From: Candidatus Hydrogenedentota bacterium
Lineage (GTDB): Bacteria; Hydrogenedentota; Hydrogenedentia; Hydrogenedentales; JAJRTN01
Reading direction: 5' to 3'
NCBI GenBank assembly: GCA_024278275.1
Contig: JAJRTN010000163.1
Span: forward strand, 1 to 38,137
DNA length: 38,137 bases
The notes below the pieces were generated by a model. It was not told where the DNA came from and searched no databases. It saw only the letters and a list, made by a program, of their open reading frames with translations. Within the stretch, counting starts at the first letter, position 1; each line of letters starts with the position of its first letter. Positions 25,053 to 26,033 of the stretch are shown in pieces. Position numbers and translations under genes: made by a program.

Positions 25053-25085
25053 AAAAAAGGGCGCGCCAATGTTTCATGACGCGCC
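25053..25085 (-). terminator. Intrinsic terminator of sRNA C
   Basis: Reverse-strand GGCGCG (25080-25085) pairs with CGCGCC (25060-25065), followed by CTTTTTTC (six T at 25053-25058). Confidence 0.7.
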
Positions 25086-25220
25086 ATCCGAGGGTGGGCC
25101 TCCCCACCATCTGCCAGCGCACGTCCGGCGTCACGCCAAACGGCCCGTCGCGGTGCCAAGACCTGCGAAGTTGACTTCCCTGTCCGGCGCCCTCCCGACA
25201 TCCCTGTCGCCGCCGCGATG
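25053..25220 (-). ncRNA. Predicted CsrA-sponge small RNA C (third of array)
   Basis: A predicted RNA of about 168 nt, start inferred about 7 nt after a sigma-28-type -10 element. The first hairpin, CGACA-GGGA-UGUCG (25196-25209), contains ACAGGGAUGU, an exact fit to the CsrA selection consensus ACARGGAUGU. The second is GAC-AGGGAA-GUC (25173-25184). Further GGA motifs follow, including one in a GGUGGG/CCCACC hairpin and a CGGAUGG before the terminator. The gene lies 9 bp from the end of sRNA B and upstream of FKBP. No start codon, binding site or conserved frame is shared with the sister copies. CsrA titration is inference from motif and structure. Confidence 0.65.
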
Positions 25221-25226
25221 CATTTC

Positions 25227-25253
25227 CTATCGGCATCAAGAGAAAAAACTTGA
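25227..25253 (-). promoter_or_regulatory. Sigma-28-type promoter of sRNA C
   Basis: Reverse strand reads TCAAGTTT, 11 bases, GCCGATAG, against the FliA consensus TAAAGTTT-N11-GCCGATAA. The -10 differs only at its last base, the -35 at one position, and the spacing is exact. Confidence 0.75.
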
Positions 25254-25257
25254 ACAC

Positions 25258-25295
25258 CAAACAATGAAGAGCGCCACGGGGGTTACCCGCGGCGC
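25258..25295 (-). terminator. Intrinsic terminator of sRNA B
   Basis: Stem GCGCC/GGCGC with inner CGGG/CCCG (25271-25295), followed on the reverse strand by TCTTCATTGTTTG. The T-tract is interrupted, weaker than in copies A and C. Confidence 0.55.
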
Positions 25296-25439
25296 ATCTC
25301 GGAGGTAAGACCTGGGACCTGGCGATTTCTTAAACGGCGGGGGATAAACCGCCTCGCTGTGGTCTTCCAGGGTATTACGTTAGGCGACATCCGTGTCTGA
25401 TTGTCCGGGGCCTCGACCTCCCTGTCTCGGCCGCTCATG
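25262..25439 (-). ncRNA. Predicted CsrA-sponge small RNA B (second of array)
   Basis: A predicted RNA of about 178 nt. It opens with GAC-AGGGAG-GUC (25415-25426) inside a longer GGCC-GA...GA-GGCC helix, then GACA-CGGA-UGUC (25386-25397), with a free GGA between them and another in CUGGAAG near 25366. A larger stem (CCUGG/CCAGG enclosing GGCGG/CCGCC) occupies the middle. A conserved CCUCC element (25301-25305) just before the terminator could pair with the GGAGG of the first hairpin. The layout is the same as in sRNAs A and C although the sequences differ, with compensating changes in the stems. The promoter at 25446-25472 is the best sigma-28 match in the array. Confidence 0.65.
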
Positions 25440-25445
25440 ATGTAA

Positions 25446-25472
25446 TTATCGGCAGAATGCGTGACATCTTTA
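25446..25472 (-). promoter_or_regulatory. Sigma-28-type promoter of sRNA B
   Basis: Reverse strand reads TAAAGATG, 11 bases, GCCGATAA: an exact -10 element, TAAAG at -35 and the exact FliA spacing. Confidence 0.78.
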
Positions 25473-25541
25473 GCTTAAACAATCGGTAAGTGCTTTATTT
25501 TCAAGATCTTGCGAAAACTTCATCACAGGGGTAACCAATCT

Positions 25542-25568
25542 ATATCGGCAAAAGCGGGCAAAACTTGA
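25542..25568 (-). promoter_or_regulatory. Fourth sigma-28-type promoter, no sRNA body
   Basis: Reverse strand reads TCAAGTTT, 11 bases, GCCGATAT. Downstream there is no GGA hairpin and no terminator before the sRNA B promoter 70 bp further on, so transcripts from here would run into sRNA B as a 5'-extended form, or this is the remnant of a deleted copy. Confidence 0.65.
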
Positions 25569-25828
25569 GCTTCCCGCGTGTCCCGGGGAAAACACCCGGC
25601 GGGCGATGGCACGGTGGAAAGCGGGGAAAAAGCGTTTGTATATTGACCCAATCGAGTTCCCCACGGGCAACATCATGCAGACCGTCCAACCGCGCTTCTT
25701 CCCGGCATGAATGGGACCTGAAGCCGGCCGCGCCAACGTTCGGGATGACACCACAAAAGGGAGCGGTTTCCGTGAGGCATACCTGGAGGGGGCGACCGCC
25801 CCGGGCACGCGCCCCCATCATGAGCCCT
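25569..25828. other. Intergenic spacer between sRNA A and the orphan promoter; no gene seen
   Basis: 260 bp without a supportable gene. It contains GC-rich inverted repeats (for example GGGGCG/CGCCCC near 25790-25805 and a CCCGC...GCGGG hairpin near 25573-25603) but no T-run and no sigma-28-type element of its own. Confidence 0.45.
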
Positions 25829-25860
25829 AAAAGAAAACGCCACAACGGGACGTTATGGCG
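25829..25860 (-). terminator. Intrinsic terminator of sRNA A
   Basis: Stem CGCCA/TGGCG with inner AACG/CGTT (25838-25860), followed on the reverse strand by TTTTCTTTT (25829-25837). This fixes the direction of transcription as leftward. Confidence 0.8.
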
Positions 25861-26000
25861 CCTCTCATGGAGGATAAGACACTGTGATACGAAACCGGTC
25901 GCGTGATGCCGGGACAAGCATCCCGGTGGCGTATCGGGTCCTATCGTCGTGACCTCCGTGTCAGGGTTTTACGGCCTCGACCTCCTTGTCTCCGCCGGTG
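25829..26000 (-). ncRNA. Predicted CsrA-sponge small RNA A (first of array)
   Basis: A predicted RNA of about 172 nt. The first hairpin is GAC-AAGGAG-GUC (25979-25990) and the second UGAC-ACGGAG-GUCA (25950-25963), separated by about 15 nt. GGA also occurs in AUAGGACC and in the CCGGGA/UCCCGG stem. A middle helix GAUACG/CGUAUC encloses that stem. GUCUUAUCCUCC (25869-25880) matches the same element in sRNA B. The clean terminator and the upstream sigma-28-type promoter delimit the gene. It is divergent from the DUF1800 gene (ATG 26127). Frames through the three copies are not conserved because gaps between them are not multiples of three. Confidence 0.7.
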
Positions 26001-26006
26001 ATAAGT

Positions 26007-26033
26007 CTATCGGCCCGGAACGGGATTTCTTTA
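26007..26033 (-). promoter_or_regulatory. Sigma-28-type promoter of sRNA A
   Basis: Reverse strand reads TAAAGAAA, 11 bases, GCCGATAG: -35 core TAAAG exact, -10 seven of eight, spacing exact for FliA-type promoters. Confidence 0.75.

Follow-up and report, generated by a model that had tools for sequence, protein, structure and literature searches.

Candidate sigma-28-controlled small RNAs of Hydrogenedentota with a predicted CsrA-binding head and a putative flagellin-antisense tail

The window analysed here, a stretch of 38,137 nucleotides from a Candidatus Hydrogenedentota genome, harbors an array of three putative small RNA (sRNA) genes, A, B and C, all on the minus strand and flanked by genes for an FKBP-type isomerase and a DUF1800 protein. 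In each copy, a sigma-28 box precedes two GACANGGANGUC hairpins and a terminator; no flagellin gene lies directly downstream of the array copies. The features of the array, together with a fourth copy (D) found on another contig of the same genome, are as follows.

26008..26033, minus strand: copy A sigma-28 promoter, TAAAG-N14-GCCGATA (sequence)
25973..25996 (core 25990-25979), minus strand: copy A hairpin 1 with outer helix, GAC-AAGGAG-GUC, GA/GA-type internal loop
25950..25963, minus strand: copy A hairpin 2, UGAC-ACGGAG-GUCA (covariance model and sequence)
25905..25923, minus strand: copy A mid hairpin with UCCC loop, GGAUGC-UUGUCCCG-GCAUC (the helix covaries in the family)
25862..25879, minus strand: copy A tail, UCUUAUCCUCCAUGAGAG (complementarity to flagellin RBS)
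25829..25861, minus strand: copy A intrinsic terminator with T-tract
25543..25568, minus strand: extra sigma-28 box between copies A and B, TCAAG-N14-GCCGATA (exact box)
25447..25472, minus strand: copy B sigma-28 promoter, TAAAG-N14-GCCGATA (sequence)
25415..25426, minus strand: copy B hairpin 1, GAC-AGGGAG-GUC (covariance model and sequence)
25386..25397, minus strand: copy B hairpin 2, GAC-ACGGAU-GUC (covariance model and sequence)
25336..25353, minus strand: copy B mid hairpin, GGCGG-UUUAUCCC-CCGCC
25300..25312, minus strand: copy B tail, GGUCUUACCUCCG (complementarity to flagellin RBS)
25263..25295, minus strand: copy B intrinsic terminator with T-tract
25228..25253, minus strand: copy C sigma-28 promoter, TCAAG-N14-GCCGATA (sequence)
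25196..25209, minus strand: copy C hairpin 1, CGAC-AGGGAU-GUCG (covariance model and sequence)
25173..25184, minus strand: copy C hairpin 2, GAC-AGGGAA-GUC (covariance model and sequence)
25053..25085, minus strand: copy C intrinsic terminator with T-tract
G000:C130:10671-10727, plus strand: copy D, on another contig

The original prediction had placed three minus-strand copies at these sites, each with a FliA-type promoter (TAAAG in A and B, TCAAG in C), two GGA hairpins and a T-tract terminator, and with a middle helix clear in A and B. These elements were all recovered: a 5'-domain covariance model trained on 47 sequences, with every copy from this genome excluded, detects copy A at E = 4.3e-13, copy B at E = 1.2e-17 and copy C at E = 1.9e-8; exact promoter boxes are located at 26033-26008, 25472-25447 and 25253-25228; the hairpins and terminators were confirmed in A, B and C at the coordinates listed above; and the middle helix, readily recognized in A and B, has diverged in C. 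The presence of csrA and fliA, which had been proposed as a check, was borne out as well, the genome encoding csrA (91 bits) directly behind fliW, and fliA (249 bits). Copy D, the extra box at 25568-25543 and the antisense tail were absent from that prediction. Neither CsrA hairpins nor a terminator were found between the extra box and copy B, and this box is possibly a decayed copy. A further match at window positions 20326-20315 was set aside, since it appears to belong to a longer coding region. The pattern T[AC]AA-N15-GCCGATA occurs 11 times in the 5.35 Mb genome, including four occurrences within the 0.8 kb that hold the array.

We searched 68 Hydrogenedentota genomes with R1, a model of the 57-nt head that contains no promoter, at a threshold of E<1e-5. 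The 83 matches comprise 80 testable loci with readable upstream DNA, two flagellin leaders and one locus at a contig edge, and the RNA family is present in 42 of the 68 genomes, with several copies per genome. The array is real, but rather than being a local one it belongs to a phylum-wide family, in a genome where fliW adjoins csrA. The proposed drive by sigma-28 is likewise supported on the sequence level, as a sigma-28 box stands at the same distance in all 80 testable loci (75 exact boxes, and five with one change in the -10 element). Since the R1 training set was partly collected using a promoter-containing pattern, the 26 R1 loci outside this set provide the fair test of the promoter link, and all 26 carry the box. 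Two contig-end copies with a common head sequence, G002:C2:1-49 (L264) and G002:C216:6691-6747 (L219), are probably one locus split by the assembly. Among the 68 genomes, csrA is found in 45, fliA in 45 and fliW in 46. At least one of csrA and fliA is encoded by 40 of the 42 genomes with the RNA versus eight of the 26 without it (Fisher p = 1.7e-8), the two RNA-bearing genomes lacking csrA/fliA being 83% and 60% complete, and fliW occurs in 38 of the 42 RNA-bearing genomes.

A scan of 85,000 species genomes for a sigma-28 -10 box accompanied by two CsrA hairpins left, after removal of coding repeats and chance hits, Candidatus Hydrogenedentota records; two matching bins labelled Rhodothermaeota (L078) and Nitrospiraceae (L085) correspond to genomes assigned to Hydrogenedentota in the genome set. 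Matches in Deltaproteobacteria, Thalassolituus, Lachnospiraceae and other groups were rejected, nearly all of them being repeats, among them Asp-rich coding ones, or isolated matches within coding sequence. Two Lachnospiraceae records (L062 at 1246, plus strand, and L101 at 1646, minus strand) show paired CsrA-type hairpins behind CCGATA in the leaders of flagellar-looking genes. The Firmicutes bin UBA3943 (L091, at about 429, minus strand) combines a sigma-28-like box and a strong terminator with no fewer than two, and perhaps three, GGA hairpins; this may be a CsrA-binding sRNA of a Gram-positive bacterium that has no relation to the present family. The Rfam search gave no match at the gathering score and nothing relevant at E<=5.

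RNAalifold and pair counts over 43 full-length RNAs revealed two head hairpins, a mid hairpin and the terminator. Paired cells amount to 94%, and both sides have changed in 20 of the 27 pairs, a level reached by none of 500 shuffles; hence, as had been predicted, the stems are kept despite sequence differences, with their pairs covarying. Among hits found without the pattern, the GAC/GUC stem of hairpin 1 is replaced by AAC/GUU, GGC/GCC, GAU/AUC or CAC/GUG, and hairpin 1 lies within a longer helix whose internal loop is mostly GA/GA. Two GACANGGANGUC-type hairpins are present in all A1 members and in 77 of 81 R1 loci, so that the conserved CsrA-type sites number two per RNA, not many as in the CsrB/Rsm sponges. 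In four genomes from a single family, a further sigma-28 RNA lies next to the array (L023 at 1987, plus strand; L026 at 765, minus strand; L027 at 1216, minus strand; and L029 at 1910, plus strand). These RNAs lack the CsrA hairpins and keep the mid hairpin and tail, and in three of the four the tail is complementary to 10-12 positions of a flagellin RBS. Because these sigma-28 RNAs retain the mid hairpin and tail without the CsrA hairpins, the head and tail modules are separable.

The hexaloop of the head hairpins is ANGGAN closed by a C-G pair, and the two GGA motifs are about 23 nt apart. Both properties agree with the description of CsrA dimer sites, in which high-affinity sites are CANGGANG hexaloops and the GGA spacing is 21 nt in flaA, with an optimum of 18 nt (PMC4894983). 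The two head sites should be enough for about one CsrA dimer per RNA, and it is very likely from their sequence that the heads bind CsrA. The same arrangement is seen in flagellin mRNAs: the Shine-Dalgarno (SD) sequence carries ANGGA in all 56 Hydrogenedentota flagellin leaders examined, and an upstream ANGGA is present in a fraction of 0.964 of flagellin leaders versus 0.203 of control leaders. By these motifs, the flagellin leaders are themselves predicted two-site CsrA targets. The sRNA head resembles a flagellin leader because the leaders have the same two-site arrangement; R1 itself picked up two of them, and the flagellin leader on contig C137 bears a sigma-28 box and a hairpin resembling hairpin 1 (GGCCGAUGCAAGGACGCAAAGG...). 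CsrA-type sites on the RBS were also noted at three other sigma-28 loci of this genome, namely, L002 (G000:C57:10973-10998, minus strand), L012 (G000:C185:17565-17590, minus strand) and L011 (G000:C164:27328-27353, plus strand); the genes concerned are a flgM-like gene with GGACACGGAGGUU before the ATG, another one that encodes a small protein and begins in a similar way, and a third with its SD inside the hairpin GGACAAGGAGGUCC.

The tail is located just 5' of the terminator and takes forms such as GGUCUUACCUCCUUGAGUG, UUCUUCCCUCCAUGAG and UCCUCUGUGAGUGG, which complement flagellin RBSs such as CACUCAAGGAGGUAAGA and CCACUCAUGGAGGA. Compared with 204 non-flagellin control leaders containing a GGAGG SD, 27 of 71 tails matched flagellins at p<0.05, 18 of them at p<0.01, and compared with 128 phylum-only controls the counts were 20 and 16 (expected about 3.5 and 0.7), the p values being corrected for the flagellin number per test, in statistics that were designed after the pattern had been seen, on homologous genomes that are non-independent and with sets of flagellin leaders that have gaps in some genomes. 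A majority of the tails gave no significant match, some of them perhaps because of these gaps. Tails scored higher against flagellins of their own genome than against foreign ones (Wilcoxon p = 2e-6), and they matched flagellins better than reversed tails did (9e-10). The longest tail-RBS pairings comprise 22 pairs (G061) and 20 pairs (G033). In the genome studied here, tails A, B and D match flagellins. The part UCCUCCAUGAG of tail A forms 11 bp with the flagellin RBS CTCATGGAGGA on contig C71 (p = 0.07 alone); tail D forms 15 pairs with one C71 flagellin and 14 with another; and tail B forms 13 pairs with a third flagellin, whose RBS is CGGAGGUAAGAUU (G000:C71, upstream of 3148). The 3' half of copy C is without a flagellin antisense tail when compared with the flagellin RBSs of its own genome.

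Flagellins and controls could not be told apart by their duplex energies with the tails (medians -17.7 and -17.4 kcal/mol), since CCUCC pairs with every strong SD and leaders rich in G+C obtain good scores; the separation came from the longest uninterrupted pairing and from the comparison of own with other genomes. As a genome-wide target motif, GGAGGTAAGA was not enriched (four sites versus seven in the reversed control), and its sole RBS site in this genome belongs to a flagellin. Altogether, the complementarity makes pairing between tails and flagellin mRNAs likely. The mid-loop (AUCCC type) also matches a GGGA loop over 4.9 nt in the tail-matched flagellin versus 4.4 nt in paralogs (p = 0.002), and the mid-loop UAUCCC of copy B complements GGGAUA in the leader of its tail-matched flagellin; we regard this match as a lead, not a result. 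In the minimum free energy structure of copy A, the GGAGG of hairpin 2 is paired with the tail. Masking of its own CsrA hairpin by the tail was not supported as a general rule, as the tails of several other genomes mismatch their own heads.

We consider it reasonably likely that these elements are sigma-28-controlled two-part sRNAs, with a head that captures CsrA and a tail antisense to flagellin. This reading builds on the sigma-28 boxes, the covarying structure, the CsrA-type sites, the tail-RBS complementarity and the occurrence of fliW and csrA in the same genomes, from which we infer that the RNAs are transcribed, bind CsrA and pair with flagellin mRNAs, and in which direction they act. 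Active FliA would lead to synthesis of the sRNAs together with flagellin mRNA; the 5' head would take up one CsrA dimer, so that free CsrA falls, while the 3' tail would occlude the start site of its matching flagellin paralogs. In addition to the FliW-CsrA control, the copy set would thereby adjust the choice of flagellins for translation and the amounts made. Sponge and antisense actions oppose each other on the same mRNA unless the paralogs differ or CsrA aids the pairing. Accommodating this, the two parts may serve different paralogs, giving general relief and a specific block, or CsrA may help tail-RBS pairing, as for McaS on csgD. The weakest link in this mechanism is the direction of the net effect; that flagellin paralogs are on balance restrained or selected among, whether or not CsrA assists the pairing, seems to us about as likely as not.

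The original prediction of a CsrA sponge stands in so far as the hexaloops match high-affinity CsrA sites, but not in the number of sites, and it did not foresee the tail. As a pure sponge, the RNA would titrate CsrA when sigma-28 is active and release flagellin and other targets, its 3' half being a stability element plus terminator. Such a function would suit two ideal CsrA hairpins spaced for one dimer, the several RNA copies per genome, the CsrA-type sites on the RBSs of flagellin, flgM-like and other sigma-28 genes in this genome, and copy C, which retains the head and loses the tail. However, the conserved tail matches own-genome flagellin RBSs beyond the SD core, and relatives exist that have the tail and mid hairpin without CsrA hairpins. 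A pure sponge does not account for the conserved anatomy, because each RNA has just two sites and an antisense tail, and we judge it improbable. Less doubtful, though still rather unlikely in our view, is that CsrA is not titrated and instead bridges the head and the flagellin leader, promoting tail-RBS pairing for joint repression. Head and tail do reside in one molecule, CsrA hairpins are found on both the sRNA and the flagellin leader, and in E. coli the repression of csgD by McaS is enhanced by CsrA binding (PMC10729762), whereas the spacing of about 23 nt between the head sites suits one dimer on the same RNA.

The tail could alternatively mimic the 3' end of 16S rRNA and bind SD sequences in general rather than act as flagellin-specific antisense, given that the tails hold CCUCC or ACCUCC and that any strong SD pairs with them over 5-6 bp. 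But flagellin leaders outscore strong-SD controls, own-genome flagellins outscore foreign ones, and the pairing extends into CACUCA and UAAGA flanks, making this quite unlikely. That the elements are leaders of unannotated mRNAs, or protein-coding, rather than independent sRNAs is very improbable. The resemblance of the head to flagellin mRNA leaders, two such leaders being found by R1, would speak for it, but a terminator closes each copy about 175 nt after the promoter, the conserved features are stems with compensatory changes, and coding is disfavored because the distance between hairpins takes all values of 22, 23, 24 and 25 nt and thus varies across all frames. The conserved reading frame named beforehand as a contrary outcome was not seen at these loci, where stems are conserved instead. 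The two-part sRNA hence remains our preferred reading.

In bacteria with FliW, CsrA represses flagellin translation until FliW removes CsrA; Gammaproteobacteria lack fliW, whose occurrence is anti-correlated with that of BarA-UvrY, the system driving CsrA-antagonist sRNAs (PMC7652899). CsrA-antagonist sRNAs and FliW have so far been viewed as alternatives, and according to a 2020 review their cooperation in any species remains to be determined (PMC7652899). Such joint action is now testable, because fliW is present in 38 of the 42 RNA-bearing genomes and lies just upstream of csrA in the present one. On balance, we lean towards a phylum-wide, sigma-28-driven Hydrogenedentota family that combines a CsrA head mimicking the flagellin leader with a paralog-specific RBS-antisense tail, and that would, together with FliW, let RNA and protein antagonists of CsrA act jointly on flagellin synthesis. 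sRNA copies matched to flagellin paralogs would represent a new way of choosing between flagellins. A literature search with subscription papers mostly outside its coverage returned no RNA joining sponge, sigma-28 and dual CsrA/base-pairing features, and nothing of this kind for Hydrogenedentota.

The RNAs share with CsrB, CsrC and RsmX/Y/Z of Gammaproteobacteria the GGA hairpin loops, intergenic genes, intrinsic terminators and several copies per genome, but differ in having two sites instead of many, a predicted sigma-28 promoter where those sponges are under BarA-UvrY control, a putative antisense tail, co-occurrence with FliW and no Rfam match. The hag and flaA leaders of CsrA-FliW organisms similarly carry two GGA hexaloops about 21 nt apart, and flaA mRNA also titrates CsrA (PMC4894983); in Hydrogenedentota, however, the sites are on a separate terminated RNA with no flagellin gene after it. 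UhpU, MotR, FliX and FlgO of E. coli and CJnc170/FlmR of C. jejuni are sigma-28 sRNAs that act on flagellar genes (PMC10578931, PMC11187230), and resemble the present RNAs, by sequence, in their promoter and in the predicted flagellar targets of the latter. No CsrA role has been described for them (CsrA is not mentioned in PMC10578931), and those of E. coli derive from mRNA UTRs, unlike the Hydrogenedentota RNAs. McaS of E. coli both binds CsrA and pairs with mRNAs (PMC7652899, PMC10729762), a single RNA with CsrA sites and an mRNA seed as predicted here; its GGA motif occurs four times and its targets are csgD and flhD, whereas the Hydrogenedentota RNAs have two head hairpins and a flagellin-RBS tail. 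Judged by these features, they are a new RNA family with both putative parts as in McaS, yet a member of neither the CsrB type nor the FliX type.
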